Shown in pieces: positions 2,856 through 41,586 of a DNA stretch of 64,000 nucleotides (positions are counted from its first letter, which is position 1; every line of letters begins with the position of its first letter). Source of the stretch: Pocillopora verrucosa (Eukaryota > Cnidaria > Anthozoa > Scleractinia > Pocilloporidae). Position numbers and translations under genes: made by a program. The stretch is from contig NC_089319.1 of assembly GCF_036669915.1 (NCBI RefSeq), positions 21,856,065 through 21,920,064 on the forward strand. The letters are read 5' to 3'. The notes beneath the pieces were generated by a model. The model was not told the DNA's origin. It saw nothing but the letters and a program-made list of their open reading frames with translations, and ran no database searches.

Positions 2856-3609
2856 TGTTCTAACGTTCCAGCAGCCTAGTTTCAGGACTGGTTTCTTTTG
2901 ATGATTTTTGTTATTGCCTGGTGCAAAGTTTGCAGTCTGCCTGTTGGATATCTCCTAATCTCCATGCACCCAATGAAGAAAGCAAACCGTGGCGGGACAG
3001 CACCTTATTGGCTGGGGGCTGCCCAGCTTGAGGCGGGCGGTAGCTGTCCAGTGGGATTCGAAGATCCCTCCCACCGACGAGAACGACCCCTGGCGCTTCA
3101 CTCTACGCCAATCGAGCAGTAGCTTATCACCGGTAAACTGCCATTCTCCGTGTTGTGTCTACGCCATGGGCGTAGCTGGAGTGTCCTCTCCAGGTGTAGT
3201 GCGAGGTGTGTTGGTGTGTAGTGTAGGCGGATGCTAGCCTGGGCAGTGTTTTATGGAGAACAAGCTGTTGCCCATGTAACATGTTCCCCCTCTCCACGTC
3301 ACTGATGGGGCCAAAGGAACAACAAGGTCGTTACAATTTGGGACCAGTGCCGTCGCAGGAGCTGCCAGCACGGGTTGAATTCAACTTCGAGCTGCCTTAG
3401 GGACTCCAACTCCGGATTTTTCCTCGAGGTTTACTCCTGAAGCCTTTTCCATGTGTGGATATAGCCGCAAGGCAGCAGAGGTTTGGGATAAGGGTTTTCC
3501 TTCCCCTAGGTAAACTGCCTTTCCAGGCTAGCGAGCTCTACCTGCCCTGTGCTGTAACCCTAGCAGGGGTGGCTGCGGGGCTGTAAACACTTGCCAAAGG
3601 TGTCAAAAA
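1..3609 (-). mobile_element. Non-LTR retrotransposon (LINE), 5' end and main ORF; 3' end beyond the window
   Basis: The minus strand carries an apurinic-like endonuclease followed by a reverse transcriptase in one open frame, the layout of LINEs. The 5' boundary is placed at about 3609-3610, where similarity to copy A's paralogues (for example 18032-19636) stops abruptly: the paralogues read ctcgatggccaagg and this copy reads caaaaaggccaagg. Roughly 650 bases (about 2955-3609) precede the long frame and look like a 5' leader. The element lies in the same orientation as the gene it interrupts. The 3' end, any tail and the target-site duplication are outside the window. I cannot fix the clade; an RTE- or I-like family is plausible. 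Confidence 0.88.
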
Positions 3610-5028
3610 GGCCAAGGATACGCCGGTGAAAAACCATTCAATAACCAGCGGAACTGAGGTAGGAATGACAAATTCCTGAAGCAGCTTCAACAATGATGTG
3701 TTTTGTAAGTAAATGAATTGGTATACGTACAACAATCCGTTAACACACACAATACCAGTTGATTCGGACAACATGCTTGTGATAACGATATCAGCCATTA
3801 GTCTCTCGCGGCGAGGAGTGCGAAAACTTCCCCATGGAGCTGATTTTCTTTTGAAGATTACATGACAAATATGATCAATGAAGACCATGCCACTTCGTTC
3901 TAAAACTTCTACCGCGCCGTGAATTATTCCAAGAACAGCGATGAATTTAAGGTTATCAAGTTCTGCCTGCATTACTCGAAACATGACCGCTGATCCAAAA
4001 TACAACGGCACTAACAGGATGTAGGAGTATCCCGGATGAACAACTTTCTTCAAGCGTTGAGTGCAAAGTCGTAAGATTACCTTGAGGATAACTCCAAAGA
4101 GAGGTGAGAAGAGTGCAATAAGGAGTTTTCCATCTTCAGTTTGTTTGTTGTACATTGGATAAATAAACCTTGCTATAAAGAAGCCAAAAAGAAAAGTTGA
4201 GCAGTAGGGTGTCGTCAATTTTATAAATAAACTCGTTCTCCTCGACAGGTTCCGGAAGTGATTTGTCAGAAGATAACCTTGCCAACATATGCTAATTTGA
4301 AATATAACGTAGAGAGGAATCTTCTGAGTCGCAGAAAGCTTGGAATGAGATATTCCAAACATTTGAAGGACAACATGATACACTATATCAACACAGAACA
4401 GGAAAAAAGCAACAAGAATGAGTTTTCTTTTCACGCCCTTTAACTGATACGGTCGAAAAAGAAAAAGCATTCCTGCAAAGAACCACATGTAAAGAAAGGC
4501 ATCACCTATCACCTCAGACAATGTTCTGATCCACTGTATTTTAACTGGGATTGTCTCCTTCGGTCGAAATTGGCAGTTGCGTATCGTTTCGTACGAGACG
4601 TAAGAGATCATGATGTAAAAAAGGCCAATGATGGCAGGTGTTAAAAGTGAAATCAATGCACCGATGTACATTGATTGACAAACTGTGTGAAGAACAGATG
4701 GTCTGAATCGCTTCCATGCCATTTCGTCATCTTCATTTTGCTGATCGTCTCCATCTTCATCCGGTGAGCTCGCGTCAATGACCCGATATCTAACTCGAGA
4801 GTTCCCTACTGACAAGAGATCATGATCGTCGTCCGATGGCGGTGAATATTCCTGATAAATAAATTTATCAACGGGCTGACAATTCCACTCTCGACCCTCA
4901 CTGCTTAAGCTATCGTTATATCCAAAGATCTCCACTTCAGGCTCATCAGGGTCGTAATGCTCTGTCACGCCGCGTGTGAAGCTGAATAAAACACGGGCAA
5001 AAACTTCAATCAGCAAACTGTTAGTCAT
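3538..5028 (-). pseudogene. Multipass membrane protein family, copy A (subfamily 2), C-terminus replaced by LINE
   Basis: The start is the ATG at 5028-5026 (MTNSLLIEVF), matching copies D and H. The frame is open throughout and shows the family layout: an acidic N-terminal region of about 110 residues, then roughly ten hydrophobic segments and the conserved FRTPRRERLMAD block. At about 3610, after FFTGVSLA, family sequence stops and the last 23 or so codons are read from the 5' leader of the inserted LINE, ending at a stop at 3538. The final hydrophobic segment and the basic WRKRWKRH stretch are lost. Otherwise it has no stop or frameshift, so it was probably intact until the insertion. Whether the chimeric protein is made is unknown. 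Confidence 0.85.
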
Positions 5029-5925
5029 TGTCCGCGAGTGCACACTTGAGATCTTCGATACCGAATGAACATGTTTCGAACAAGCTCCAGTTTTTTATTA
5101 TAATGTTTTGAAAGTGAAGGTGCTCACAAAGAAGAAACAATACTCCCGCCATCTGCATGCAGCGAAAGTTTTGACTTGTCTAATGAAAGTTGAAGAAAAA
5201 GGATGTTGACGATCAACATTATGAATTATATATTTCTATCGTTTGAATTTTAAACAAATCCTCATAAAGAGGTAGTCAGAATGAATACTTCAGCTCGTAG
5301 ACATATAATGAACATGTTATGAATAAGCTCCAGTAATTTTAGTATGACGTTTTGAAAGTGCAAGTGCCAATAAAGCAAAAATCATCTAGCCCTGTCAAGT
5401 AATCTGCAATCTAATCATGCAAATCGATTTCCATCTGTTCACGATGATTGAAGCGGCTCGACAATATTCGCGAGATGAGACTTAATTCTTTTGTGTAGGT
5501 TGTTAGCGCAAACACCGTATCGAATTGAGCTTTTGGTCAATCATTTGAAGAACATCAATGAAGGACCTTGTTGGATTCGACAAACAGACTGAAAGGTTGA
5601 ATAAGTTAAATAGAAGAAAGTTAGGAGAGTTGTTGCTGGAATCTTGGGGGCGGAATGAAAACACCTCCATTGCATTTCAAGGAAACAGCCTCTGAAATTT
5701 CTCGATTTCACTGTTTCAGTGATGTTCAGTGCACATTTATCAAGTAATTAAAAGTAACGACGATCGGCCAACTTAAACTGAAGCTTCCCAGTGTCCATTT
5801 ATTATATCTAGATAAGCTGCCATAAGTTTTTTTCAATGATGGTCGCTCTCTTCGGTAATGTGTCGAGATAAAATATTTATTAGCGTATCGGAACAACTCT
5901 ATGAAAAGTCCCAAACGTCAGTTCT
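5029..5925. other. 5' flank of copy A, no gene seen
   Basis: This stretch is homologous to the upstream regions of copies D (19637-20960) and H (33912-35220). That includes the segment with gaacatgtttcg near 5068 and the aactgaagcttccca segment near 5775. It may hold the minus-strand promoter, but I see no convincing core element. Confidence 0.5.
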
Positions 5926-6090
5926 AGTAGTGATTGAGTGGTTTTCACAAGCGTGTCTCTTGCGATCGAGACTTATCAGTTATCAGAACATGGCTGTCAT
6001 GGCTGTTTAGAGAGAAAGATGGAAGAGACACACTCTTGTGGCATTTGTCAATGCGGTGGCATTGGCACTATGGTTGAGTGCATAAGTTAA
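5926..6090 (+). pseudogene. Relic of a family copy, C-terminal fragment only
   Basis: About 150 bases match the C-terminal coding region of intact copies: the equivalents of VIEWFFTGASLAIET, then the WRKRWKRH region and AIANLVPLAIW, with stops and frameshifts. Its left edge abuts sequence that in other copies lies far upstream of a minus-strand gene, so a deletion has probably fused the two. It sits where plus-strand copies E and F sit next to D and H. Confidence 0.6.
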
Positions 6091-7701
6091 GAAAGTTTTT
6101 CATGTTCCCTTCGTTAATAATACTCAACCTTACAAGATGCCTTTTAGCCATAGCCTTTTAACTCAATCAAATGGTATTCAGCGGTAAACACGTTTGTAGC
6201 TGAAACGTAAAGGAGTAACCCTTCTTGATATAGACACAACCATCAGAGCACAAATTAATGCACCAGGTTCACCAATACATTTGAGTTCAGCGTGGCATCA
6301 TAATATCGTAATGAAACGAAATTACTCTCCCTTAACCGCAACATAATGTATGTAGCTGACTTTATAATCTTTTCCTATTAAAGGAATAATTATAGCTGAC
6401 TTTATATTTGAATCTCTTTTTACAAAATTATCCTTGTTTGAATATTTACATCAAATAATAATTTCCTTACCAAGATGTAACAATGTAATTTCCTCTGGAA
6501 GTTTCAAAGACCCAAAATAAGTTGTCTTTGTTGGTTGGAGAATTTAGACTGAAACTGGCACGGTTGACGTTATGGCAATGCTGATAGAATAGAATGTGCC
6601 GAACTGGCTAATGTCATCATCGTACAAATTGCTTCCGTATGAAGTATATTTAAAAAGGCTTTGAGGTCAAAAGCGGCAAGATCACGGAACTATGTGAGCA
6701 TGAAAGTAAATTTAATCGATATAATTATTTGTCCTGACATGCGTATTATATTTAAGAAGAATCTTGGATGGTCTGATTCAGCTCCCGCTGTGAGATAAAT
6801 TAGCTCGCGAAGGAAACAATAAATGCTCTTTATTAACCAACTTTCAGTTGTTGATGTATCATACAGCTTTGAACGAATCTCAGAATTGTGAGCATTTAAG
6901 TAAATATGATCGATATAATTATTTGTTCTGACATACGTATTATACCTGAAAAGAATCTCGGATGGTCTGATTCAGCCCCCACCGTGAGATGAATAAGCTC
7001 ACGAAGAATACAAAAATGCTCTTTCAGTATCAACTAATTTTTAGTTTCGAATGAAACCTGAAAATTTACGGTTATTGTCTGGATTACGGTCTGATTTTAA
7101 TTTAATTGCAATCTACCGGTAATTATTAAGAAGACGATTGTTCCCAAACGAACCTTGATCTCTTAGTCAGGAAGCTAATGTTGAAGAATACCCTCCAGCT
7201 ACATTTGTGTGAAAGCATCCGTTAAAATCTAGATATTTCGTTTTCTTCCAAAAATAGCTGAGAGTAATGAGTCAAATGAGTTTCAGTGATTTTTTTCTGT
7301 AATGGAAAAAACATTTACTAGTTGTCTGCAAAAACTACACACTGGGATAAACTGCGTAAGCCTTTTCACTTTAATTCGTATATCAATCGCTCTTTGGCAT
7401 AATTTATGTGCATGTCTTTGATATTAAGTCAGTGATTAAGGATATGTCGCCCACGATACCAAATATTAACTCCCGAGAAAAAAGTTAAGGAAATATCGAA
7501 AGTCCAAAGCACCATCGAAAGTTTCCATATTCATGCGCATCTATGTCCAATTTTTAGGGAATGACACAATGCACATTAGAAAGATCATTTAAAATTGGAA
7601 AATTAACAGAAAACATCAATATTGAAATTGATATCGAAAGTCGAAAATTGAAATCTTCCTGCTGTATCTCAACTTTCGTTATAAAAGTAAATCATTCCAA
7701 A
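6091..7701. other. Intergenic block, duplicated at 11.15-12.08 kb, with a local tandem repeat
   Basis: From about 6580 onward this region matches 11160-12083 closely, so it belongs to the 4.38-kb duplication that made copies B and C. Inside it, a segment of about 138 bases at 6692-6830 is repeated at 6887-7024 (offset 195), both containing a tcgatataattatttgt-like core and agctcgcgaag or agctcacgaag. The second block has only one unit near 11270-11410. From 7561 a frame continuous with copy B is open, giving a 47-residue N-terminal extension. No gene is supported in 6091-7560. Confidence 0.5.
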
Positions 7702-12083: not shown

Positions 12084-13694
12084 ATGAGTAGCAGTACATT
12101 GATAGAAGTTTTTGGTCACATCGTGTTCAGTTTCACACGAGGTGTCACAGAGCATTACAATCCTGAAGAACCTGAATTTACAGCGGAATTATTTGGCTAT
12201 GATCCATTGGAAAGCACTGGTCGAGAATGGTATTATCATCCTGTAGATGAGTTTATATTTCAAGAATACAGCGATAGAAGGGATACAGCTTTTTCCTATC
12301 TCCCTTCATCAAGTCTTAATGTGAGATGTATAAACGCGTGCACACCAGAGGAAAATGAAGAGACGTTAAGCGGCCAACAAGATGAAGATCGAGCAATGGC
12401 TTGGAAGCGGCTCAGACCATCCACTCTTTCCACAGTGTGGAAAGCACTGTGTACCGGTGCTTTGATTTCATTGTTGACTGCTGCTATTATCGGTGTCCTA
12501 TATATAATGATAACCTACGTCTGCTATCAAACCATATACAACTGTCAATTTCATGACACGGAGACAATTCCTGAGAAAGTACAATGGATCAGAACATTGT
12601 CTGATATCACAAGTTGTGTTTTCCTGTACTTGTGGTTCTTTGGAGGTGTGCTTTTACTTTTCCGACCATATCAGATAATGGGGTTGAAGGGGAAACTGTT
12701 CTTAGTAGCTCTTCTCCTGTTTTCTTTGGATACACTTTATCGCGTGGCGCTTCAACTTCTTGGAATATCTCATTCTAGACTTTCTGTGTTAAAAAAGATT
12801 CCATTGAACGTTTTTTTTCTCTCAAGTGTATGTTGGCAAATTTATCTCTTAACAAATGCGTTTCGCTCGTTATCAAAAAGGCTGAATTTATTTTTCAAAA
12901 TGCTAATGCCAAGTTGTTTCCCTTTCGCAATCGGCATCTTCGTAGCGTCTTATATTTACCCGATGTACAGCAAGCAAGATGGGAAAGGAAAGCTACTTAT
13001 AGCAATCTTCTCGCCTCTCATCGCGGTCGTTCTTAAGGTGATCTCTCGAATATGCGTTCAGCGGTTATGGCGCATAACTCATCCAGGACGTTCGTTCGTC
13101 TTGTTAGCGCCGTTGTATTTTGGAGCAGCGGTTATGTTTCGAGTGTTGCAAGCAGAGCTTGACAGCCTTAAATCCATCGCTATCCTTGGAATAGTCCACG
13201 GTGCTGCAGAAGTCATAGAGAGAAGCACCATGGTTATCATTGATCACGTTTGTCATTTCATTTTAAAAATAAAATCAGCTCCTTGGGGAAGTTTCCGCAC
13301 TCCTCGGCGTGAGCGACTAATGGCTGATGTCGCTATTTTAAGTATGCTTTATGAATCAACTGCTATTATTTCTGTTAACAGTGTTTTGTACTTGTATCAA
13401 TTTATTTACATACAAAATATTCCACTTTTAAAACTGCTGCAGAAATTTGCCATCATACCTCAGTTGCACTGGTTATTGAATGGTTTTTCACGGGCGCATC
13501 ATTGGCCATCCAGACTCGTTATCAGAACATCGCAGTTATGGCCGTTTGGCGAAAAAAAATGGAAAAGACACATTTTGGTTGCTATGGCAAATCTCGTTCC
13601 ATTGGCAATTTGGACGACACCCAACCTCTTGGAAATTGTACATGGGCGCTTTCATGGGTTTCAAAGCCACCCGTGTAAAATGCCCTTCGCTTAG
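12084..13694 (+). CDS. Multipass membrane protein family, copy C (subfamily 1), full length with an internal out-of-frame patch
   Basis: Family-type start MSSSTLIEVFGH at 12084; the frame is also open upstream to an ATG at 11916, adding 56 residues not seen in the intact copies G and I. From 12084 it is 536 residues with the usual hydrophobic segments and FRTPRRERLMADV. One base is missing near 13451 (ttgccatcat for ttgcaattcat) and one A has been gained in a run of eight at 13552-13559. Between them about 35 codons are read in another frame, replacing the conserved VALVIEWFFTGASLAIET and QNIAVMAVWRKR segments with PQLHWLLNGFSRAHHWPSRL-type sequence. Beyond it WKRHILVAMANLVP is back in frame. 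Losing a hydrophobic segment so near the C-terminus makes normal function doubtful, yet the ORF never closes. The 5' flank is unlike that of G and I. Confidence 0.75.
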   Translation: MSSSTLIEVFGHIVFSFTRGVTEHYNPEEPEFTAELFGYDPLESTGREWYYHPVDEFIFQEYSDRRDTAFSYLPSSSLNVRCINACTPEENEETLSGQQDEDRAMAWKRLRPSTLSTVWKALCTGALISLLTAAIIGVLYIMITYVCYQTIYNCQFHDTETIPEKVQWIRTLSDITSCVFLYLWFFGGVLLLFRPYQIMGLKGKLFLVALLLFSLDTLYRVALQLLGISHSRLSVLKKIPLNVFFLSSVCWQIYLLTNAFRSLSKRLNLFFKMLMPSCFPFAIGIFVASYIYPMYSKQDGKGKLLIAIFSPLIAVVLKVISRICVQRLWRITHPGRSFVLLAPLYFGAAVMFRVLQAELDSLKSIAILGIVHGAAEVIERSTMVIIDHVCHFILKIKSAPWGSFRTPRRERLMADVAILSMLYESTAIISVNSVLYLYQFIYIQNIPLLKLLQKFAIIPQLHWLLNGFSRAHHWPSRLVIRTSQLWPFGEKKWKRHILVAMANLVPLAIWTTPNLLEIVHGRFHGFQSHPCKMPFA

Positions 13695-15692: not shown

Positions 15693-15699
15693 CTACATC

Positions 15700-18031: not shown

Positions 18032-19636
18032 CTATGTGAAGGGCATTTTGCAAGGGTGATCTTTAGACTTGTCAAAGCGCCCACGCACAACTTCCCACAG
18101 ATTTGCTGTCGTCCAAATAGCCAGTGGAACCAGGTTAGTTATCGCAACCAATATGTGTCTTTTCCATCTTTTGCGCCAAACAGCCATAACTGCTATATTC
18201 TGAAAGTGAGTCTCGATGGCCAAGGATACGCCGGTGAAAAACCATTCAATAACCAGCGGAACTGACGTATGAATTGCAAATTCCTGAAGCAGCTTTAACA
18301 ATGAAATGTTTTGTGAGTAAATGAATTGATATAATTACAACAATCCGTTAACAGATACAATAGCAGTTGATTCACATAACATGCCTAAAATGGTAATATC
18401 AGCCATTAGTCTCTCACGGCGAGGAGTGCGAAAAGTTCCCCAAGGAGCTAATTGTCTTTTCAAGATCACGTGACAAATATGATCAATGAAGACCATGGTG
18501 CTTCGTTCTAGGACTTCTACCGCGCCGTGGATTATTCCAAGAACAGCGATGAGTTTGAGGTTATCAAGTTCTGCCTGCATTACTCGAAACATGATCGCTG
18601 ATCCAAAATACAACGGCACTAACAAGACGTACGAGTATCCCGGATGAACAATTTTCTTCAAGCGTTGAGTGCAAAGTCGTAAGATTACCTTAAAGATAAC
18701 TGCACAGAGAGGTGAGAAGAGTGCAATAAGGAGTTTTCCATGTTCATTTTGCTTGTTGTACATTGGATAAATAAGCGATGCTATAAAGATGCCAATAAAA
18801 AAAGTGAAACAGCCTGGTGTTGTCAATTTTATAAATAAACTCGTTCTACTCGACAGGTTCCGGAAGTGATTTGTTAGGGGATTAACTTGGCAACATGCGC
18901 TTATTAGAAAAAGAATGTTAAGAGGAATCCTCTGAGTCACAGAAAGCTTGGAATGAGATTTTCCAAAGACTTGAAGGACAACACGATACACTGTATCCAT
19001 ACAATAGAAGACAAAAGCAACAAGAATAAGTTTTCTTTTCACGCCCTTTAACTGATACGGTCGAAAAAGAAAAAGGATTCCGACAAAGAACCACATGTAT
19101 AGAAAGGCAACACCTATCACGTCAGACAATGTTCTGATCCACTGTATTTTAACTGGGATTGTCTCCCCTTGGTGAAGTTGGCAGTTGCCTATCGTTTCGT
19201 AAGAGACGTAACAGATCATGATATAAAAAAGGCCAATGATGGCAGGTGTTAAAAGTGAAATTAATGCACCGATGTACATTGATTGACAAACTGTGTGAAG
19301 AACGGATGGTCTGAATCGCTTCCAAGCCATTTCGTCATTTTCATCTTGCTGTTCGTCTTCATCTTCCTCTGGTGAGCTCGCGTCAATGACCCGATATCTA
19401 ACTCGAGAATTACCAACTGACAAGAGATTATAATCTTCGTCCGATGGCGGTGAATATTCCTGATAAATAGGTTTATCAACGGGCTGACAATTCCACTCTC
19501 GACACTCACTGCTCAAGCTATCGTCGTATCCAAAGATCTCCACTTCAGGCTCATCAGGGTCGTAATGCTCTGTCACGCCGCGTGTGAAGCTGAATAAAAC
19601 ACGGGCAAAAACTTCAATCAACAAACTGTCATTCAT
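18032..19636 (-). pseudogene. Multipass membrane protein family, copy D (subfamily 2), one premature stop
   Basis: The start is the ATG at 19636 (MNDSLLIEVFARV) and the family stop is TAG at 18034-18032. The only disabling change I find is a TAA at 18337-18335, within NGLL-stop-LYQFIY, where copies A and H read TAC for tyrosine. Codons on both sides remain in frame, so apart from one nonsense codon it is a complete gene of about 535 codons. Translation to the stop would give 433 residues, lacking the last two hydrophobic segments. It is head-to-head with pseudogene E. Its single lesion suggests recent loss. Confidence 0.85.
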
Positions 19637-22705: not shown

Positions 22706-22715
22706 AATAAATAAA

Positions 22716-22760
<45 letters not shown>

Positions 22761-22963: not shown

Positions 22964-23045
22964 CTTGTATTTGTATTAGTCTACTTTCTTACAAAACGTT
23001 CCACTTTTGAAGCTGCTTCAGGAATTTGCAGTTCATACCACAGTT

Positions 23046-27365: not shown

Positions 27366-27608
27366 AGACTTGGAAATCATTTCGCTGGCGTCCGTTCAGC
27401 CTTTCCACGGGTGACGGTCTTGTAAGCTTCTCTTCGATACCGCCTTATATTATTCGGTTCGTAGCGGAAACGAAATTTTATGAAGAAAGAATCCATGTTC
27501 CGTCTGCTTGTACAGAGAAAGGAAACTCTGACCACAATGATTATTTCTAAAAGACCTGCGAGGATGAAGATTTCATTGGAAAGAATAGCAGAGATTGTGT
27601 GTCACTAA

Positions 27609-27614
27609 AATAAA
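27609..27614 (+). terminator. Candidate polyadenylation signal of copy G
   Basis: AATAAA in a cactaaaataaacgcc context, about 240 bases past the stop and conserved at the same place after copies B, C and I. The length of the 3' UTR is inferred. Confidence 0.35.
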
Positions 27615-28864
27615 CGCCATTCGATCTAGCGCTTTGAGGCAATTAAATATGGAGAGCTTCAGCCTACAAATTGAATTAATCACAGCTCTTATGGGCTACG
27701 AACATTGCCGTAATGAAACAGTCAGTGACAATATTTTGTTTGAGCTCGTATGGGTCTGCTTAGCACCTCTTTGGGTTTGGGTTCAATGACATACGCATGC
27801 ACATTATTTGAAAAATAGTGCAAAGGCTCGATTTGGTATCTTAGAGACATATAAGATAAGACTGCTACGCATTTATAGCTTGAAACTTGCCTTCGAATTC
27901 TTTGAATCATGTAGGTAGAAATTCTTTAGAAAAACTCATAAAAATACAGAGCATATGGATACCTTAACAAACTGAAAGTTGCAATACCCTATAGCTTTAA
28001 TGGTCACGAGGTGAAAACCAAAATAACTTAGACTTAAACACTCCATGTAAATTGGTTAACTAAAATTACATGGACAATGCTTGTCGGTTACTATACTTAA
28101 CCAATTAGTAAGTCATCCAACATACAGTTAACTCTGTAATTTATATACTGGTTGTTTCTCAGCATAATGGTTGCACAGACATTTGCGTTAGAAGTTTGTT
28201 GTACAGTATTTTTACGTTGTTGGTTTACTGAATTCTTAATGCTCAGTCTGGTTTCTATCCAATAAATAGATTCAATGTTGCCGCAGGAGATTCAAAATTT
28301 GTTTTTATCACATTTTGACGCCATATGTGATCTATTACTGAACAAACGCACGACAACATGGAACATGTTTGCTTTATATGATAAAGAAGCCAAACCGTTT
28401 TGATGACTCAGCTGCGCCACATTTTGACGTAATCTGTGATCTGTTACTGGACAGACCCACATCAATATGGTATATGTTTGTTCTAAACAATAGAGAAGCA
28501 AAACTGTTTGATGGTGACGTTACCCATGCGTCTGTCCTCCGATAGATCATAAGTAAGAGGCAATTAAAACGCGCGCGTAATATAACTTTTTACAACGTAC
28601 TTAGCATATACACAGGAAAAGGATTTTATGTACACCAATTACCACCCTCTCAGGTACTTCCTGGGAAAGTATTTAATATTTAAGTACGAGTAGATATATA
28701 ACTTTGAAGAAAAAACTAATTATACAATAACAGGAACAAAAACTTGTTTAGGCAGTCATACCCTGATTCATCACGCAACAAATCTAGAGAATTATGTGAC
28801 AACCTCCATTTATAGGATGGGATAGATATGATTATTTGAAGTTTTATGATTAAAGGCGAAAATC
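27615..28864. other. Intergenic between copy G and receptor fragment R3
   Basis: Homologous to 41829-43109 with small indels. It carries the same AT-rich segments, including acgcgcgcgtaatataactttt near 28568. No gene seen. Confidence 0.4.
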
Positions 28865-30380
28865 TTATGTTATTATATCAATGCCCTGCAAATAAACATA
28901 CCAGTAGCCCAAATTGTACAGGGCATATGAAAGAGGAAACAGAATTCGACACGCAAAATCAATTTTTTCAGGGAGAGTTCTTTTTTTCATCCCACATTTA
29001 GTTCTGGGTGACTTTGGGTTTCCTTCAAGACACTGTAAGAAACTGCCATTCTTCTGCGATAGCTCTGATGTCTCGTCATTCGGGCCAGTGTCGTTATGAG
29101 GGGCTGTGGCTGTCACTAGTAGGACATGAACTCTTCCCTTAGCTAGGGATTTGACGGAATCACCTGATATGTTCAAAGGTTTGGAGCTCCTGCGATGACG
29201 TAGGTCCAGTTTGCTCAAGGATAATCGAGAAGTGTTCTACAAAATAATTAAAAAAAATTATCTTTTCGATTTGATTCACTGTCACGACCATACGGGGATT
29301 GAAACCTCGGATCAATGTCAGTATCTACCCTTCCCCTGGCCTAACATTAACTTTAACTTGCTATCAGTTGACTGTTGTTGGACTTGGGGAGGGGTAACTG
29401 CGCAGTTTCTCAGATACTGATATTAATCTCAATCTAAAAAAACCACGCACTGTCCCTGCAATATCTTTTTAAGGAGGGAGGCTGTTTAGTCTCTCTAGGT
29501 CAAAAGGAGATAATTTCACAATTGGAAAAAAAGTGGAAACCTCATTACCAGTCCTTTGTTGTGTATTCCTTCCTCCTTGTTTTCTTCATTTTGCTTCTCA
29601 TTTGCGAGTCTATCTGCCAGTACACACTCAACCAGGGACAGAAAGATAAAAAGAAATAACGTCATTAGAAACCAGTCCACTCCTTTCACATAGCTCACCT
29701 GCAATGAAGTTACATGTATCGGGTATCAAATAACGCTCAAAGTTATACGATATAAATATCTCTATATAAATTTATAGAACTTAATCCAATTTTCCTGTTT
29801 TTTTTTTATTTTGTTTGGCGTGAGTTACGCAAACGTGACACTGAGCCAGAAATACACTTTGATTATATATTGTTGAGAAGTATTATCCACAGATAGAAGT
29901 ATTTTGGGGTGTGAGAGGCACGGATGTTGCATTTTTGGTAACGCCATGATTTAAAGTTCCTCACTAGTAAATGGGTTTGCAACGAGCCTTGGTTATCAAC
30001 AAGGGCAAAAATACATTTATTCTTTTCTAAATTAATTTTAGATATGTACGGCCAATATTTATACGGCGTACGTCTAATTTTTGCAGAGAGCGAAATTTGT
30101 TTAACTATTTTTTTTTTTAAAAAGGTGTCCTTCTTGTGATGGTTTTCTTGACTGTTGATAGCCTAAACCATAACGAATTTTCACGAATCCCTGCATACCA
30201 CCGTCTGTTAAATGCATGTCATGTTTTAGTCATGAGAGTTCTCTGACCTTAGGCAGCATGCCGTTGATGTAACCCAATAAGAAAACAACTGTGAGAATGC
30301 AAGTGATGCCGACAGTGAGCCTTTCAACACAATCCAGCTCGGCATAACGAGGAAGGTAAATGAAAGGTACAGCTGGATCA
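28865..30380 (-). pseudogene. Cys-loop receptor 3' half, truncated copy R3
   Basis: Three exons match the complete receptor. Exon 9 (29236-28865) is open, with the M4 helix KIDFACRILFPLSYALYNLG. Exon 8 (29698-29549, 150 bases) encodes M3, beginning VSYVKGVDWFLM, with AG and GT sites kept. Exon 7 (from about 30247) keeps M2, RLTVGITCILTVVFLLGYIN, and its donor, but about 28 bases encoding the M1-M2 linker are deleted near 30325 and similarity ends near 30380, in M1. No extracellular exon follows. It marks the right edge of the first 14.2-kb duplication unit. Confidence 0.8.
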
Positions 30381-32307
30381 TGTTTGTCATTCTTAATTAA
30401 ACAATGTTTACAGATATTCACAACACAGAAAACCTCGAAATCTAATATTTAACAAAAAAATACAAACCATCAGCAAAAAAAATGCACTCTTACAACAATA
30501 TCTACATAATTGTATGTCTAACCCTTGGTAAACAAATAGAATCTGCTTCATTACGGTTAATGAAATGAAACTACGAAGTGACAAGAACAAACCTTGTTCA
30601 AAAATGAATGAAACATGATATCTGTTTACCACCTGAGGTGGATCATATGTAAAAGTCAGTTCTTAGTTGGCTTAATTTTGTCGAGTGTAAAATTCCATAG
30701 TTACAGAACGAGTTTTTGCAAAGTAATTGTTGATCTTTGTGGACGTTCAAACGTTTATATCGCCGATGTAAATCTCTGTTAATATAAAACTATCAATGCT
30801 TCTCTGACACAAACAAAATGATAAGGAATATTATTATATATTACAGTAACTATGAAAACTCTGATTTGTTTGAGAGAATTCAGTCATTATACATAGGCGT
30901 GTGAAGTTGACATGATAACCCAATATCTGCAGCAGATATTGGGTTACTATGTTGAGTTTCTCAAACTTTTGCAAACTCACAGAGAAGTGTCTTCCTTGGC
31001 AGATTGTTTCAAAAAATGTATGATAAAATTATTACTTAATCAATTTTTTTACATAATATTAAAGACAGGAAATTGTTTGGCTCTCGGTCATGATCTCGAG
31101 TCAAATATTCTCCCGTCTGGCTCTTCCACTCAGTCATTAAGTAAATAAAATTGGAAAGTGAGACATAATAGTCAATATTGCAAGCAACCTCGTTTCTTAA
31201 CCCTCACCCCACCCCTCAGGATGAAGAATGGGACGTTTCAGTTACGCACTAGCAGTTGAACTTCAAGTTAAAGGGCAAAAGTTTACCAATATTGCATCTA
31301 ATTAAGCGCATAGCTTAAAACTTTAGAACAGATTGGTTTACGTCTATTTTTAGCGGAATATTGAAGGTCGCTTTTACTGATAGTGAATCGTAATAAAAAT
31401 TATTTTTGATCTTAAAACTCTGAAGCGTTGAATTCGTGCTTGAGTGCCTTTGTACTCAAGCGTGAAGTTCAGTAGATTGATTTGAAGAGTCTCGTGAGAG
31501 TTAACTCTGTTTTTCCAATCTACCAATCATCTTGTTGAGTGCGTGACTGCTGGACAGTAAATTATTTCACTTAGACACAGTCCGGTCCAAATGCTCTGTC
31601 TGGAAAAGTTTAGAACTATAAATGTACTTCAATGACCGTATGTACATGGCATGTCCATGTTAAAGGAGATATGAGGCATTTTTTTATACCGACAAGAAAG
31701 GTGATGTTCTTGAAAGCTTCAAGGTAAGATCCTTATAAAACGAGTGCACATTACAAACAGCGCCCGCACGCTTTGAAAATTTTGTGTGTCTTGACTTTCT
31801 GTGATGTTTGTTCACGTACATTATTAACAAGTAATAACATGATTTCGCTTGCAATTTACTCGTGCTTATTAACTCCGAATTGGACTCGGGATCATGTTAG
31901 TACTAATACATATATCTTAACAGACGCTTTGGTGTGTAGTACCGCTGACACGTAAAACAAAAGTACAACGAGTAAAAATGCTCATCGATATTACACACCA
32001 AAACATCTAATAAGTTATTCATTATCTATGCAACTGCTATTTTTTTCTGCTAAGTCTTTCTGCTCATTTCTCATAAGGCGGGAAAAGCAAAGCGGATAGA
32101 GAAGCGTGGCGCGCCCAGCCGACTGGTTTTTATAATAACCAACTGTACAAATAACGGAACAATATCGTAGGATATTTGTACTCTACTTTGTGCAGTTGGA
32201 TAATAATAACTGGTAAGTGTAATATGTCATCAATCTCTAGCACCACCACAAGTCAGTTGACACAAGAAAGGCTGAAAGACTGCCGGCATTTAGTTTTCGG
32301 TAGTTCT
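30381..32307. other. Intergenic, junction of the two 14.2-kb units
   Basis: From about 31030 this matches 17030-18030. The part between 30.4 and 31.0 kb is unmatched in the window. No gene seen. Confidence 0.45.
30916..30946. repeat. Perfect 31-base palindrome
   Basis: TAACCCAATATCTGC, one A, then GCAGATATTGGGTTA: 15-base perfect arms with a one-base centre, in the duplication junction region. Confidence 0.8.
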
Positions 32308-33911
32308 CTAGGTGAAGGGCATTTTGCAAGGGTGATCTTTAGACTTGTCAAAGCGCCCACGCACAACTTCCCAGAGATTTGCTGTCGTCCAAATAGCCAG
32401 TGGAACCAGGTTAGTTATCGCAACCAATATGTGTCTTTTCCATCTTTTGCGCCAAACAGCCATAACTGCCATATTCTGAAAGTGAGTCTCGATGGCCAAG
32501 GAAACGCCGGTTAAAAACCATTCAATAACCAGCGGAACTGACGTATGAATTGCAAATTCCTGAAGCAGCTTCAACAATGAAATGTTTTGTAAGTAAATGA
32601 ATCGGTATACGTACAACAATCCGTTAACACACACAATAGCATTTGATTCACATAATATGCCTAAAATGACAATATCAACCATCAGTCTCTCACGGCGAGG
32701 AGTGCGAAAACTTCCCCATGGAGCTGATCTTCTTTTCAACATCACATGACAAATATGATCAATGAAGACCATGGTGCTTCGTTCTAAAACTTCTACCGCG
32801 CCGTGGATTATTCCAAGAACAGCGATGAGTTTGATGTTTTCAAGTTCTGCCTGCATTACTCGAAACATGATCGCTGATCCAAAATACAACGGCACTAACA
32901 GGATGTACGAATATCCTGGATGAGCAATTTTCTTCAAGCGTTGAGTGCAAAGTCGTAAGATTACCTTAAAGATAACTCCAAAGAGAGGTGAGAAGAGTGC
33001 AATAAGGAGTTTTCCATGTTCATTTTGCTTGTTGTACATTGGATAAATAAGCGATGCTATAAAGATGCCAATAAAAAAAGTGAAACAGCCTGGTGTAGTC
33101 AATTTTATAAATAAACTCGTTCTACTCGACAGGTTCCGGAAGTGATATGTTAGGGGATAAACTTGGCAACATGCGCTTATTAGAAAAAGAATGTTAAGAG
33201 GAATCCTCTGAGTCACAGAAAGCTTGGAATGAGATTTTCCAAAGACTTGAAGGACAACACGATACACTGTATCCATACAAAAAAGACAAAAGCAACAAGA
33301 ATAAGTTTTCTTTTCACGCCCTTTAACTGATACGGTCGAAAAAGAAAAAGCATTCCGACAAAGAACCACATGTAAAGAAAGGCAACACCTATCACGTCAG
33401 ACAATGTTCTGATCCACTGTATTTTAACTGGGATTGTCTCCCCTTGGTGAAGTTGGCAGTTGCCTATCGTTTCGTAAGAGACGTAACAGATCATGATGTA
33501 AAAAAGGCCAATGATGGCAGGTGTTAAAAGTGAAATTAATGCACCGATGTACATTGATTGACAAACTGTGCGAAGAACGGATGGTCTGAATCGCTTCCAA
33601 GCCATTTCGTCATTTTCATCTTGCTGTTCGTCTTCATATTCCTCTGGTGAGCTCGTGTCAATGACCCGACATCTAACTCGAGAGTTCCCTATTGACAAGA
33701 GATCATAATCGTCGTCCGATGGCGGTGAATATTCCTGATAAATAGGTTTATCAACGGGCTGACAATTCCACTCTCGACCCTCACTGCTTAAGCTATCGTC
33801 ATATCCAAAGATCTCCACTTCAGGCTCATCAGGGTCGTAATGCTCTGTCACGCCGCGTGTGAAGCTGAATAAAACACGGGCAAAAAATTCAATCAACAAA
33901 CTGTTATTCAT
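32308..33911 (-). pseudogene. Multipass membrane protein family, copy H (subfamily 2), one frameshift
   Basis: ATG at 33911 begins MNNSLLIEFFARV; the family stop is at 32308. Compared with D, one base is lost in a run of A at 33279-33284, so the N-terminal frame ends shortly after RKLILVAFVFF and the remaining 320 or so residues are in the next frame without further damage. The nonsense codon of D is absent: here NGLLYVYRFIYLQN reads through. D and H thus carry different single lesions. Confidence 0.85.
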
Positions 33912-36267
33912 TATCCGCACTACAGTCTTCGAGTGAACACTTGGGATCTTCGATACCGAATGAACATGTTTCGAATAAGCTGCAGGTTTTTTACTATGAT
34001 GTTTTTAAAGTGAAAGTGCTAACAAAGCAGAAACAATACTTCGGCCATCTGAATGTTAGCGAAAGTATTCAATACTCCACTTGTTCACTGAAAATCTGAG
34101 GAAAAATATGTTGATGTTCGATATTATTAATTATATGTATTTCTATCGTTTGAATTTTAAATATATCCTTATAAAGAGGTAGTCAGAGTGAATACTTCAG
34201 CTCTTTGGCATCTAATGAACATGTTTCGAATAAGCTCAAGTTTCTGAAGTATGAAATTTTAGTGAGAGTGCTAACAAAGCAAAAGCCATTTAGCCCTGTC
34301 AGAGGATCTGGTATAAAAGCTTCATTTCTGTTCCGCGGAAACAGGCCAAGTGTCGACCAGAAGAATCCAACTCTATACTGTGCTGCGTGAAAATTCAAGA
34401 TGTGACATGACAACGATTAGTCAGTGATAAATATTGATGTTTTTCTAGAGATTGTGAGACGTAATTTCAGCAATGGACATTTCACTCGGTATTGTATCAA
34501 GCAGGACGTATTCTTTTGTTTTCTCTGAAATTGGGCGCAAAATAAGAAATTGTTCTTTAATAGCTATGATTGAGTGTTGCTCTGAAAGTAAATTACTACA
34601 CCTCATTGAACAAATAAAATATTAATCCCATCTACGCCAATTTTAGCTTTAGAACTTTCTTCTTTAAGGCAAACATTTCATCAAAGACCTATTCTTTAAC
34701 AACCAGTCTCAAAAAATACTGATTTCTTTGGCAAAGAGATAATTGTCGTGTATGACCAAACTTTACTTCCTCGTTGCACGGTGCTTACATGCAAATCGTT
34801 TTCCATTTGTCCACGATGATTGAAACGACCCGACAGTATTTGCCAAATGAGCTCTTAATGCTTTTGTGTAGGTTGTTGGCGCAAAGACCGTATCGAAAAT
34901 AAGCTTTCGGTCAATAATTTGAAGAATGTTAATGAAGGAACTTGTTTGATTCAACAAAAAATTGTCAGAGCTGAAAGCTTGATAAAGTAAGTAGGAGAAT
35001 TGTTGGTGGAATCTTGGGGCGGAGTTAAAAACTTCCATTGCATTCCAGGGTAACAAGATTTCACTGCTTTAGTGATGTTCAGTGAACATTTACGAAGTAA
35101 TTCAAAATAAAAACGATCGGCCAACTTTAATTGAAGCTTCCCAATGTCCATTTATTATTTCTGAATAAGCTGCCATAAGGTTTTTTCAATAATGATCGCT
35201 CTCTTTGGTAATATGTCGAGATATAATATTTTATTTATGCATTGTGCATCAATATCCAATACTGATTGAGCCAGCATAGCCAAAATTTTACAATTCATAG
35301 AGCCTATTAAGACCCTAGTCATATTTCTTTCAGCTTTGTTCAAAAAGTAACCACTTGATATATCAAAATATCTCTTTATGTGCTTTCATGATGACAGGAC
35401 TTCGCTTCCTTAATAAATAATGTCTGCGTTTGCTTATAGTTTTCTAATTTTCCACGGCAAATAGACAGTCCATGCCTTTCAGCACTTGGTCTATATATAC
35501 ATCCAGAGAAAAAAAATGTTGCATAGCTTTAAGTACGGATCTCTAACTCGGTCAGTAAGAGGTATTTAATTTGCTTCAAAATATTAACCTAAAGCCTATT
35601 TTCGACACGATGTTTCTGCTAAGGAAGTTTTTTATCCACGCAAAAGAGTCACGGTAATTTGATATCATTTGGCTTTCGAGCCTATTTGGCAAAAACTCTC
35701 TAACCGTTTTCAATCGTGGACAAATGGGAATCTGTTTTAAGTGAAGCTCCGTGAAGATGAAAGGATTCGAACAGACATTTTACGAGACTGATTCTACGGA
35801 CCGTATCTTGAAGTCATTGAAGAAGTTAAGGACAACCTTCCCAGCTTAAAACTGACGTAGAACTGATTCCTGAGTACTTCATTTGTTCAATAAGGTGTAG
35901 TATTTCCACTTTCAGAACCACAATCAGTGATGGATATTAAAAAACGATGAGCTAAACCTCGGGGAAAACAAAATATTACGTTACGCCTGATATAGCAATG
36001 AGTACCTCTCTATAAGGATTTGTTTAAATTTCAAACGATAGAAATATATAAAATTTATATCATTGACGTCAGCATTTCATTTTTTTTTCTTCAATTTTCA
36101 GAGAACAAGTGAAGAAGTCAATACCTTTTCTAACATGCAGATGGCCGGAGTATTGTTTCTCCTTTGTTGGCATTTCCACTTTCAAAACATTATGCAAAAA
36201 AAACCTGTAGCTTATTCGAAACACGTTCATTTGGTATCGAAGATCTCAAGACTCTCTAACGCGGATA
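33912..36267. repeat. Spacer between head-to-head copies H and F with inverted leader repeats
   Basis: Duplicate of 19637-22095. The leader next to H (33912-34190) is found inverted next to F (about 36005-36267). Short frames inside are not shared in a way that suggests coding. Confidence 0.6.
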
Positions 36268-37722
36268 AAGGAAAAAGTTTGCTGATTGGAGTTTTTTCCC
36301 GTGATTTATTCAGCTTCACAAGCGGCGTGACAGAGCATTTTTCGACCGTTCCAGTTAAAGGGCGTGAATAGAAAACTCATTCTAGTTGCTTTTGTCTTTT
36401 CCTGTGTGGATACAGTGTATCGTGTTGTCCTTCAAGTCTTTGGAATATCTAATTCCAAGTTTTTTGTGATTCAGAAGATTCCTCTCTATGTTATATTTCT
36501 AGTTAGCATATATTGCAGAGTTTATCTTTTAACAAATCACTTCCGGAACCTGTCGAGTAGAGCGAGTTTTTATTTATAACACCCTACCGCATCCTTTCTT
36601 TAATGCCATCTTTATGACATCGTTTATTTATCCAATGTAGAACAAACAAACTGAAAATAGAAAACTCCTTATTGCACTCTTTTCACCTCTCTTTGGAGTT
36701 ATCTTTAAGGTAGTCTTACGACTTTGCACTCAACGCTTGAAGAAAATTACTCATCCGGGATACTCGTACATCTTGTTAGTGCCGTTGTATTTTGGATCAG
36801 CGATCGTGTTCCAAGTAATGCAGGCAGAACTTGATAGCCTCGAATTCATTGCTGTTCTTGGAGTAATCCAGGGCGCGGTAGAAGTTCAAGTGTAGAACGA
36901 AACACCACGGTCTTCATTGGTTCATATTTGTCATGTGATCTTGAAAGAAAATCAGCTCCTCGGGGAAGTCTACGCACTCCTTGCCGTGAGAGACTAATGC
37001 TGATATTACCATTTTAGGCATGTTCAATGGGAATCAACTGCTATGATGTCTGTTAACGGCGTATTTATATCAGTCTACTTATTTACAAAACATTCCACTT
37101 TTAAAGCTGCTTCAGGAATTTGCAGTTCATACCACAGTTTATACAATGAAAAATTGTCAAATACTTGTGCAAAATTAGTACCTGGCATGACGCGGCGTTT
37201 TGTCTCGGCCAAGAGACTCATCAGATACCTTCCGTAAATACAAAGCGAACCCGTCGAGCATCGCGCTCAAAGTACCGTTCCCGTTTGACAATTTTTCATT
37301 GTATATATTGTAACTCGTGAACACGCGGCTGCAAATCCTTCTGCGATTGAGGGCCAGACTGCTAACATCTTGACTTCGCGAATGGGACTTTGAGCGTGAT
37401 GCTCGACGAGTTCTCTTTACGAAAGGTATCTTATGAGTCTCTTGGCCGAGACGAAACACCGCGTCATTCCAGCCAAGACTTTTCACATACCACAGTTCTG
37501 CTGGTTATTGAATGGTGTTTCCCCGGCGCATCCTTAGCCATCGAGGCTCGCTTTCAGAATATCGCAGTTATGGCCTTTTGGCGCAAAAGATGGAAAAGAC
37601 ACATTTTGTTTGCGATGGCAGATCTGGTTCCAATGGCTCCCTAGACGACAGCAAATCTCTTGGAAGTTGTAGATGGGCGCTTTGATTAGTATAAAGGTCA
37701 TCCGTGAAAAATGCCCTTCGCA
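36268..37722 (+). pseudogene. Multipass membrane protein family, copy F (subfamily 2), degraded
   Basis: Sister of E. The start codon is lost (aag in place of atg at 36268). The large deletion from FTSGVTEH to the RPYQLKG region is shared with E, but the segment encoding RKLILVAFVFSCVDTVYRVV through NHFRNLSSRAS, lost from E, remains. It shares the foldback insertion and the terminal stop in the LVPMAP region but lacks E's palindromic insertion. Confidence 0.85.
37140..37485. mobile_element. Foldback element, orthologous to 23046-23396
   Basis: Same inverted-repeat structure and the same 12-base flanks CATACCACAGTT (37128-37139, 37486-37497), so the insertion predates the duplication that produced E and F. 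Confidence 0.8.
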
Positions 37723-39189
37723 AGCAGAACTTCTAAAAACTTAATCCTGACAGGCTTTCAGCCTTCCTTGGGTTAATGGCGTGTATTGCTCAAGATTGTT
37801 GACTTGTTGCATTCACCGAAACGTGACAGAAAGGATTGAAAACAAAATTGATCCGCTCAGCTTGTGGAAGGCAAGAAGTCTTTCATTCTTTTCTGAATCC
37901 TAGGTATATTTGCGCCAGGCGACGACGGAAAGCATTTAGACAGCGAGGAAACTCTAACAGGCGAGCCTGCGAGTTGCTTGGCACGGTTAAAAAAAAGAGC
38001 TTGCAAGAATGCCATCGTTTTCCGTTTACACGGATGATTCGCTCATGCATGCGCCTTTCTTCTTAATAAAAAAATGGTAGGTCCTAATACTTAATTCCGA
38101 TATAGATATAGATATAGATACCGGAATTGTAGTAAATTTATCATTCTAAACTTTTCAAGAAAGTGTATTTGGAGTGCCCTGTATGTAGATAAAATCGTGT
38201 TCTACGGATGTGAGACATCAGAGATTAGCTCGATATGAAATTATACGTAGAGTAAGTTGACAGTATTTTCGAAACTTACGCGACAATCTTTAACCACTTA
38301 TTTCAAAACATCCTTTCAGATGTAGATGCTCTCACGATGACAGGACTTCATTTGTTTGATAATAGTTGTATAATTTTCAATGGCAATTAAACAGTTCGAT
38401 ACCTTTTCCCAACGAGCACGCAGTTCTTTTGTGTAACTGTTTAATGGAAAAACCCTCAGGCAAAAAACCCGAATCGAAAATGAGCTTTCGATCAATTGCT
38501 TCTCTACGAGCTTTTATCCATGAATACGGTTTGCAATGATCCGCAGTACTTGGCAGGGTTTAGAGGCGTGATAGTTTCTCCTTCCGTTTTCCATACATGC
38601 ACTGTATAGAAAGACTAGTAAAAGGGGACACACTTTCTCTTCAACGAGTCGTCCTCTTTAAATCTAGCTCTTGAGAATTCAGAGACGCAGAAATATCAAG
38701 ATATGAATAGATATATGTTTTTTTCACTACTTATTCTTTCCAAGAGTTATTGTCATAGTTGTTAAACCTGCCTGTGTACAGACTGCCATACAATTCAATT
38801 ACATACAAAAACATTTAGTTACTTGTTTTATGAGTTGGTTCGTGTCATAAGCTGTGCTTCCAAGCGAAGTGGCCGTAAGGGCTTTTGAAAATTGACTACG
38901 TGTTTAACAACGTGGGCAAATTTATTCTCTTCCAGTTTGTTCTGTTGCCTAAACAAAAACTGCATGTTCCTGCTTTCATTTCATTCAAAGAATCAGAGAA
39001 AGTCTGCGCTCGCGCCATCCTCAATCAATACATTTTATGTTTCCTGTGTATGCAAGTGTGCACCTTCACGTAATTCTAGGCGCTGTCTCACTCACAGACT
39101 ATTTGTCGCTATGCAATGCAAGTGTAGCTTTTTCGTCGTTTGGTTATAATTTGACAGGTTTAGAACGACCTAAACCACTTTCAGCCACT
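37723..39189. other. Intergenic between F and I
   Basis: Duplicate of 23640-25190, with a short gatata repeat expanded near 38098-38120 and small deletions. No gene seen. Confidence 0.45.
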
Positions 39190-40034
39190 CTGTCTCGAAA
39201 CTTTTTCCTTTTCACTCGACTGAGCATCAAAGGCAGAAAAAATGGATATTAACTGCAATGAGTTCGCTGAAAACGCTGAGAGTTTGAGATTGCGTTTTGT
39301 ATCTAAATTTTAACCTGTGCAGTTAAAGTCGGTCATTTGACGGGTGAATAATGAGCAGCAATACACTGATAGAGGTGTTTGGTCACGTTGTGTTCAGTTT
39401 TACTCGTACCCCTTGTTTTGAAACTTATTCCTTTTCACTCGACTGAGCATCAAAGGCATAAAAAATGGATATTAACTGTATTAAATTCGCTGAAAACGCT
39501 GAGAGTTTGCTTCGTAAGCACTTTCAGTATGGATGTACTTTCACTTCCTAAGTATATATCCACCTAAAAGATCGCAGATATTGGGAAAGATTGCGTTTTG
39601 TATCTAAATTTTAACCTGTGCAGTTAAAGTCGGTCATTTGACGGGTGAATAATGAGCAGCAATACACTGATAGAGGTGTTTGGTCACGTTGTGTTCAGTT
39701 TTACTCGTACCCCTTGTTTTGAAATTTTTCCCTTTTCACTCGACTGAGCATTAAACGCGGAAAAAATGGACATTAAGTGCACTGAGTTCGCTGAAAACGC
39801 TGGGTATACAAAAATTTACTCAGCTTGAGTTTGCCTCGTAAGCACTTTCAATACGGATGTACTTTCACTTTCCAAGTATATATTTACCTAAAAGATAGCA
39901 GCTATTGGGAAAGATTGCATTTTGTATCTAAGTTATAGACTGTGCAGTTAAAGTCGGTCATTTGACGGGTGAATAATGAGCAGCAATACACTGATAGAGG
40001 TGTTTGGTCACATTGTGTTCAGTTTCACTCGTGG
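39190..40034 (+). repeat. Three tandem copies of the 5' leader plus first 19 codons of copy I
   Basis: Units begin near 39190, 39411 and 39712 and end in gttttactcgtacc, except the last, which continues into the gene. The first is shortened by about 80 bases. Decoy starts lie at 39351 and 39652, each reading MSSNTLIEVFGHVVFSFTR before leaving the family sequence. Confidence 0.85.
39874..39883 (+). promoter_or_regulatory. Candidate TATA element for copy I
   Basis: AAGTATATAT about 95 bases before the start at 39976, identical in place to the element ahead of copy G. Confidence 0.3.
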
Positions 40035-41586
40035 TGTGTCAGAGCATTACAATCCAGAAGAACCTGTATTGACACCGGAGATGTTTGGCTACGATCCTTT
40101 AGAAAGCACCGGTCGAGAATGGTATTATCATCCCGTAGATGAGTTTATATTTCAAGAATACAGCGATAGAAGGAATACAGCTTTTTCTTATCTTCCTTCA
40201 TCAAGTCTTAATGTGAGATGTATAAACGCGTGTGCACCAGAGGAAAATGAAGAGACGTTAGGCGGCCAACAAGATGAAGATCGAGCAATGGCTTGGAAGC
40301 GGCTCAGACCATCCGCTCTTTCCACAGTGTGGAAAGCACTGTGTACCGGTGCTTTGATTTCATTGTTGACTGCTGCTATTATCGGTGTCCTATATATAAT
40401 GATAACCTACGTCTGCTATCAAACCATATACAACTGTCAATTTCATGACAAGGAGACAATTCCTGAGAAAGTACAATGGATCAGAACATTGTCTGACATC
40501 ACAAGTTGTGTTTTCCTGTACTTGTGGTTCTTTGGAGGTGTGCTTTTACTTTTTCGACCATATCAGATCATGGGGTTGAAGGGGAAACTGTTCTTAGCAG
40601 CTTTTCTCCTGTTTTCTTTGGATACACTTTATCGCGTGGCGCTTCAACTTCTTGGAATATCTCATTCTAAACTTTCTGTGTTAAAAAAGATTCCATTGAA
40701 CGTACTTTTCCTCTCCAGTATATGTTGGCAAATTTATGTCTTAACAAATGCGTTTCGCTCGCTATCAAAAAGGCTGAATTTATTTTTCAAAATGCTGACG
40801 CCAAGTTGTTTCCCTTTCGCAATCGGCATCTTCGTAGCGTCTTATATTTACCCAATGTACAGCAGGCAAGATGGGAAAGGAAAGCTACTTATAGCAATCT
40901 TCTCGCCTCTCATCGGGGTCGTTCTTAAGGTGATCTCTCGAATATGCGTTCAGCGGTTATGGCGCATAACTCATCCAGGACGTTCGTTCGTCTTGTTAGC
41001 GCCGTTGTATTTTGGAACAGCAGTTATGTTTCGAGTGTTGCAAGCAGAGCTTGACAGCCTTAAATCCATAGCTATCCTTGGAATAGTCCACGGCGCTGCA
41101 GAAGTCATAGAGAGAAGCACCATGGTTATCATTGATCACGTTTGTCATGTAATTTTAGAAAGACAATCAGCTCCTTGGGGAAGTTTCCGCACTCCTCGGC
41201 GTGAGCGACTAATGGCTGATGTCGCTATTTTAAGCATGCTTTATGAATCAACTGCTATTGTTTCTGTTAACAGTGTTTTGTACTTGTATCAATATATTTA
41301 CTTACAAAATATTCCACTTTTAAAGCTGCTGCATAAATTTGCAATTCATACCTCAGTTGCACTGGTTATTGAATGGTTTTTCACCGGCGCATCATTGGCC
41401 ATCGAGACTCATTATCAGAACATCGCAGTTATGGCCGTTTGGCGAAAAAGATGGAAAAGACACATTTTGGTTGCTATAGCAAATCTCGTTCCATTGGCAA
41501 TTTGGACGACACCCAACCTCTTGGAAATTGTACATGGGCGCTTTTATGAGTTTCAAAGCCACCCGTGCAAAATGCCCTTCGCTTAG
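39976..41586 (+). CDS. Multipass membrane protein, family copy I (subfamily 1), intact
   Basis: 536 residues, single exon, with TGA ATA ATG fixing the start. Layout and hydrophobic segments are as in copy G. Differences from G are scattered, for example PEMFGYD for PETFGYD, ILERQSAP for ILERKSAP and LLHKF for LLQKF, with no gap over the whole length, so both proteins are probably maintained or the duplication is recent. An AATAAA lies about 240 bases after the stop. The complete receptor gene at 43110-48226 converges on it from the other strand about 1.5 kb away. Function unknown; membrane location is inferred from hydrophobicity only. Confidence 0.9.
   Translation: MSSNTLIEVFGHIVFSFTRGVSEHYNPEEPVLTPEMFGYDPLESTGREWYYHPVDEFIFQEYSDRRNTAFSYLPSSSLNVRCINACAPEENEETLGGQQDEDRAMAWKRLRPSALSTVWKALCTGALISLLTAAIIGVLYIMITYVCYQTIYNCQFHDKETIPEKVQWIRTLSDITSCVFLYLWFFGGVLLLFRPYQIMGLKGKLFLAAFLLFSLDTLYRVALQLLGISHSKLSVLKKIPLNVLFLSSICWQIYVLTNAFRSLSKRLNLFFKMLTPSCFPFAIGIFVASYIYPMYSRQDGKGKLLIAIFSPLIGVVLKVISRICVQRLWRITHPGRSFVLLAPLYFGTAVMFRVLQAELDSLKSIAILGIVHGAAEVIERSTMVIIDHVCHVILERQSAPWGSFRTPRRERLMADVAILSMLYESTAIVSVNSVLYLYQYIYLQNIPLLKLLHKFAIHTSVALVIEWFFTGASLAIETHYQNIAVMAVWRKRWKRHILVAIANLVPLAIWTTPNLLEIVHGRFYEFQSHPCKMPFA

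Follow-up and report, generated by a model that had tools for sequence, protein, structure and literature searches.

What is the protein encoded by the array of related open frames in a 64,000-nucleotide stretch of the Pocillopora verrucosa genome (contig NC_089319.1, positions 21,856,065 to 21,920,064; hereafter the window), and what might it do? An earlier note, made from the letters of this DNA, had described here an intronless multipass membrane protein belonging to no recognised family and present in about ten copies within 38 kb. Searching the window by tblastn with the product of 25755-27365 and two other copies, we found a multipass membrane protein of about 536 residues represented over 3601-41583 by nine copies, with a further fragment from the C-terminus. 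The array is thus real. The homology of these frames is not due to chance, since frames of this length share up to 96% mutual identity. Below we describe the family, its copy number, its uninterrupted frames, the purifying selection acting on it and the anatomy of its duplications, and we put forward a tentative reading, to which we give somewhat less than an even chance, of the protein as transporter- or channel-like, with buried charges forming a polar path and paralogues varying in their first half.

The array extends beyond the window, which is one corner of a larger family. The genome searched comprised 353.4 Mb in 52 contigs, the window corresponding to 21856065-21920064 of contig C8, and matches were counted as six-frame matching pieces, which gives lower bounds. 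With P0001 as query, at least 85 pieces were obtained, contig C8 accounting for 71 of them (21.00-21.16 Mb and 21.65-21.90 Mb). Thirty-five of the 85 were free of stops over 500 or more of the 536 residues (the window copy A2 included), with 28 on C8, four on C14 and one each on C3, C4 and C12. The query P0002, a member from contig C5 with 33% identity, gave at least 81 matches and added open members on C5 (two), C6 and C9 as well as a broken one on C13. The query P0004 (contig C9; 24% identity to P0001, E 5e-25) gave at least 73 matches, and no additional open full-length member was found among those listed. Altogether, the genome holds at least 40 open near-full-length members (39 without A2) on eight contigs, five of these members being more distant ones. 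A tree of 36 members clustered by genomic place with few exceptions (9 changes compared to a minimum of 8, and 17.7 in shuffles); in this tree the P0004 branch was long and of unsure placement, and ten inner branches were unresolved. The most diverged member read, L047:180-1688 on contig C9, encodes 503 residues with 24% identity to P0001 and lacks the C-x-x-PF end; no close paralogue of it was found in the genome search, and it is possibly close to the ancestral form. A fusion protein suggested by the long open frame of one member was dismissed, as this frame runs into a stretch of N.

Each of the 36 members read consists of one uninterrupted frame, down to 23-24% identity. The single-exon structure, proposed for the window copies, is therefore an old, family-wide state in this genome. 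Its origin had been put down to either an old retrocopy or a lineage-specific invention. A recent retrocopy is ruled out because diverged members are uninterrupted on eight contigs and because no clear exon-by-exon relative was found in three genome searches, from which a very diverged or short-exon parent could escape. The window copies also share kilobases of flanking sequence, unlike flankless retrocopies. A very ancient retro-origin may nevertheless lie behind the family. A few copies on contig C8 consist of two open parts with some 0.9 kb in between (21024316-21025149 plus 21026095-21026931; 21041517-21042446 plus 21043270-21043683), which may reflect an insertion, a partial duplication or a spliced gene with an intron.

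The view that the family is unrecognised held up in searches for known relatives. A Pfam scan of P0001 gave no match, and scans of eight window rows, 34 genome members and the more distant P0002, P0003, L033, L047 and L048 returned only weak matches to unrelated models, all below the curated cut-offs where bit scores were shown. The strongest of these was MFS_1 (PF07690) with an E-value of 0.00091, in the near-identical trio L022, L024 and L026. The likeness to this transporter superfamily consists in the multipass architecture, a similar length and the weak profile match in three of 34 members; the differences are that the match is below cut-off, that P0001 and the five distant members do not match this model, and that about 11 predicted helices are favoured here, compared to 12 in two related halves, although 12 would be reached with the weak 471-489 peak. 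The similarity between the two halves of the present protein was not significant, its score being reached in 25 of 300 local shuffles. NCBIfam and PHROGs, against which few members were scanned, gave only noise. Sequence matches to RcdA and MON1A in the Protein Data Bank (PDB), obtained with two queries, were rejected at E 0.03 or worse, and a PDB search with three profiles returned nothing. No homologues were found in collections of viral contigs, of prokaryotic genomes (queried with alignments of window copies), of phages (queried with P0001 and P0002) and of plasmids (queried with P0001), which are uninformative about the distribution in cnidarians. In the literature, we found no title or abstract opening naming the family, which is not proof that it is unpublished.

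The copies in the window were named by relatedness, with A1-A4 on the plus strand, B1-B3 on the minus strand and C1-C2, both decayed, on the plus strand. Start codons are at 7702 (A1), 12084 (A2), 25755 (A3), 39976 (A4), 5028 (B1), 19636 (B2) and 33911 (B3). The features are as follows:

3601..5028, minus strand: copy B1, open over codons 1-476, with unrelated sequence in place of the final ~60, the frame continuing to 3538
5912..6148, plus strand: C-terminal fragment, residues 458-536, 47.5% identity
7702..9225, plus strand: copy A1, several frame changes and an internal deletion; 5' flank of the L005/L006 type
12084..13694, plus strand: copy A2, open, ~residues 461-500 out of register; L005/L006-type 5' end and A3-like body
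18032..19636, minus strand: copy B2, full length with a single in-frame stop (TAA)
22096..23633, plus strand: copy C1, decayed, big N-terminal deletion, without FRTPRRERL
25431..25487, plus strand: partial tandem copy, promoter region and first 19 codons, upstream of A3
25755..27365, plus strand: copy A3, intact, 536 residues
32308..33911, minus strand: copy B3, one frame change near 33279-33342 giving two open frames
36276..37722, plus strand: copy C2, decayed, big N-terminal deletion, without YPMY and FRTPR
39351..39407, plus strand: partial copy, promoter and 19 codons
39652..39708, plus strand: partial copy, promoter and 19 codons
39976..41586, plus strand: copy A4, intact, 536 residues, 96% identity to A3
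17059..44579, no strand: tandem duplication of a ~14.2-kb unit, aligned pieces 89-97% identical, limits set by the reach of the aligned pieces

The two intact copies of 536 residues, A3 and A4, agree with what had been noticed before. The statement that every copy keeps YPMY and FRTPRRERLMAD was too strong and applies to most copies only: YPMY is present in eight of nine, FRTPR in seven of nine and the exact 12-residue FRTPRRERLMAD in six of nine. B3 carries LMVD within the FRTPRRERLMAD region, FRTPR is missing from C1 and C2, and YPMY is missing from C2.

The window copies are not independent duplicates but recur with the ~14.2-kb unit, which contains B (minus strand), C (plus), A (plus) and the 3' portion of a gene for a Cys-loop receptor (minus). 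The aligned pieces are 17059-21235 with 31324-35482 (91% identity), 21266-21801 with 35478-36005 (89%), 22967-25160 with 37061-39192 (94%), 25189-27745 with 39409-41959 (97%) and 28505-30326 with 42754-44579 (94%), at offsets of 14.1-14.3 kb. Since the units diverge by 3-11% between aligned pieces, plain allelic copies are less likely. Two of the copies, A1 and A2, are chimeras. Their 5' flanks (7102-7701 and 11484-12083) are unrelated to the flank upstream of A3 and A4 and resemble that of L005/L006. In A2, the 5' flank and the first ~200 bp are of this type (87-95% identity to L006 over -300 to +200) and the remainder resembles A3 (94-99% in the coding part), the switch lying between +200 and +300. 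The flank of A1 and A2 is a natural promoter swap, its junction falling within the gene's initial ~200-300 bp. That these two copies have a coding extension upstream is unproven, since 48 codons are open in both but nine residues differ. A further exchange is suggested by the comparison of A3 with B1, in which synonymous divergence (dS) is saturated at the 5' end and has come down to 0.35-0.8 by the final three windows compared, with B2 and B3 behaving similarly. We read this gradient as gene conversion; part of the conservation of the FRTPRRERLMAD region within this array need then not be due to constraint.

The paralogues are under purifying selection. The median ratio of non-synonymous to synonymous divergence (dN/dS) was 0.20 for the 408 non-saturated among 630 pairs of the 36 members, the 222 saturated pairs having been dropped. 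For the 48 pairs with dS below 0.35, the ratio ranged from 0.15 to 0.87, with 38 at 0.3-0.5; these pairs overlap and are not independent. Within the window, it was 0.16-0.28 for A versus B, 0.26 for A3 or A4 versus A2 and 0.39-0.65 among the B copies (0.22 in one 99-codon piece), a row that set two pieces of B3 against each other being left aside. Of the 28 differences between A3 and A4, 21 are non-synonymous and 7 synonymous, which gives a ratio of 0.87; no constraint is visible since their split, and their intactness may reflect youth.

Hydropathy averaged over the 36 members showed 13 peaks, two of which, at the extreme N-terminus and the weak one at 471-489, were dropped; two helix ends were extended by hand. 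The resulting predicted transmembrane helices (TM1-TM11, in the numbering of 25755-27365) are 128-146, 175-193, 205-223, 239-257, 273-291, 303-321, 339-357, 360-385, 416-434, 451-475 and 498-516. Eleven is thus the best count for what had been proposed as 10-11 hydrophobic segments, as predicted from the family-averaged profile. Lysine plus arginine residues in the segments that follow TM1 number 3.7, 1.6, 1.1, 0, 0.7 and 2.8 on the predicted outer face, the last value covering the C-terminal tail, and 4.1, 3.8, 2.7, 7.4 and 4.4 in the predicted inner loops that alternate with them. According to the positive-inside rule, basic residues favour inner loops. Hydropathy and this alternation, which agrees with the rule, favour a model of 11 helices with the N-terminus inside and the C-terminus outside. 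The signature of the family is R-x-x-R-[LF]-x-A-D, present in 36/36 members in a basic predicted inner loop, and not YPMY, which occurs in 8/36; the longer forms RTPR-x-x-R-[LF]-[MIVA]-A-D and FRTPRRERL[MA]AD are found in 35/36 and 25/36, respectively. Seven ionisable residues lie within predicted helices, H372 being kept in all 36 members and D216, K318, R353, E379, R380 and E424 in 35 each. C531 is kept in 35/36 members and C154 in all eight members of alignment A7; both are predicted to be outside and could pair. A comparison of five members taken from five contigs shows TM6-11 to be 62% alike and TM1-5 38% (by helix, two-sided p 0.02); for pooled loops the values are 60% on the inner side and 37% on the outer.

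These features lead us to the following proposal. The family is large, old and single-exon; tandem and segmental duplication enlarged it, together with gene conversion and the swapping of promoters, and many of its copies died. The integral membrane protein that it encodes is predicted to have about 11 helices, its N-terminus lying in the cytosol and its C-terminus outside the cell. The conserved ionisable residues within the helices would form a polar path, which is why we read the protein as a transporter or channel that might move a small solute or an ion. The paralogues would differ in the substrate accepted, chiefly through the variable TM1-TM5 and the outer loops. Several results weigh against this proposal. 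Conserved charges within helices also occur in receptors, and no homologue of known function was found. The scores for MFS_1 were only 16.1, 17.8 and 18.7 bits in L022, L024 and L026, compared to a gathering cut-off of 33.4, and two window rows matched this model at E 0.93 or worse. An AlphaFold2 prediction made with eight window rows as input (pLDDT 37.2, pTM 0.23) was unusable. The omission of the 471-489 peak leans on the positive-inside rule, as the basic loop 490-497 would otherwise be outside, and the alternation is not an independent test; keeping the peak gives 12 helices. An earlier automatic run, limited to window copies and lacking helix 8, put 9 or 8 helices and an inside N-terminus first, and with 10 the orientation was unclear. 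Finally, the contrast between inner and outer loops reached only a one-sided p of 0.06 by loop, and it shrinks when scaled by dS (dN/dS 0.26 inner and 0.31 outer, 65 pairs of intermediate divergence), so that we place no weight on it.

A close rival, which we consider nearly as likely, is a family of chemosensory or recognition receptors, metabotropic or ligand-gated, in which one half would vary with the ligand and the other, the signalling half, would be conserved. Tandem arrays of single-exon genes shaped by birth and death are a usual form of such families, insect-type gustatory and odorant receptors and rhodopsin-like G-protein-coupled receptors (GPCRs) being the usual tandem, often single-exon, multipass examples. 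The tandem single-exon arrays with many broken copies found here resemble them in this genomic style, and the basic inner loop with the invariant signature, as well as the C-terminal half and inner loops being most alike across contigs, would suit a signalling half. However, GPCR and insect chemoreceptor models were absent among the Pfam matches of window and genome members, about 11 helices are predicted rather than 7, and gene conversion can make the 3' half look conserved (along the gene, dS for A versus B drops from saturation to ~0.4). We regard as improbable an enzyme of intracellular membranes, a scramblase or a structural membrane protein without a role at the cell surface: the conserved histidine and acidic residues in helices would also suit membrane enzymes, but no enzyme family profile came up to a cut-off in the members scanned, and housekeeping membrane enzymes do not usually diversify in large tandem arrays. 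A different question is whether the window copies are non-functional and on the way to loss, with only copies elsewhere mattering. This is a fair-sized possibility, though short of even, and it is compatible with a functional family. It agrees with eight of the ten window copies and fragments being broken, garbled or partial and with the A3-A4 ratio, but the older comparisons that include window copies (A versus B) indicate constraint, as do most close pairs of open members genome-wide. With the transporter or channel proposal and the receptor alternative both in mind, a bolder and doubtful extension is that the family is undescribed at the level of the fold, consists of ~11-helix receptors or transporters that have been single-exon since their origin, and was amplified to at least ~39 open genes in a probably cnidarian lineage to form a repertoire that faces the environment, much as clusters of olfactory receptors do.

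Inventories of coral expansions that rely on domains would overlook a family such as this, with some 40 open genes for membrane proteins under constraint and no domain model. Giving it a name yields a specific set of candidates for roles in sensing, nutrient exchange or symbiosis; its profile could be run across cnidarians at once. In corals, tandem duplication has been described as important to how gene families are amplified, the vast majority of amplified families functioning in transmembrane reception, cell adhesion or signal transduction (PMC10236652). The present family shares tandem amplification with these and is not named in the passages of that study considered here.

With regard to regulatory sequences, A3 has a TATA-like box ~99 bp upstream of its ATG and an AATAAA ~245 bp past the coding end. 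Only 5/36 members (A3, A4, L031, L033 and L047) have a TATA-like hexamer no more than 160 bp from the ATG, and a common promoter with such a box was rejected as a family feature. A poly-A-like signal within 400 bp was present in 23/36 members, both counts being made without chance control. The promoter together with the first 19 codons forms two to three tandem repeats upstream of the intact genes (25189-25811 and 39287-40032), which could provide alternative starts.

Two Cys-loop (neurotransmitter-gated) receptor genes lie on the minus strand at 43110-46878 and 51823-55295; they are made up of several exon-like pieces that stand apart and match Neur_chan_LBD and Neur_chan_memb. Of ten receptor fragments scanned, six matched Pfam neurotransmitter-gated channel domains, five of them above cut-off, and these multi-exon pieces fit an animal source. 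Partial 3' receptor copies adjoin A copies at 28868-30381, 15108-15461 and 10588-10956, and a copy of the exon encoding receptor TM4 adjoins A1 and likewise A2. A tandem repeat of ~22/40-bp units (TTGTTACATTTCGCG...) is located at 16665-16847, with about 4-9 copies depending on the period chosen.

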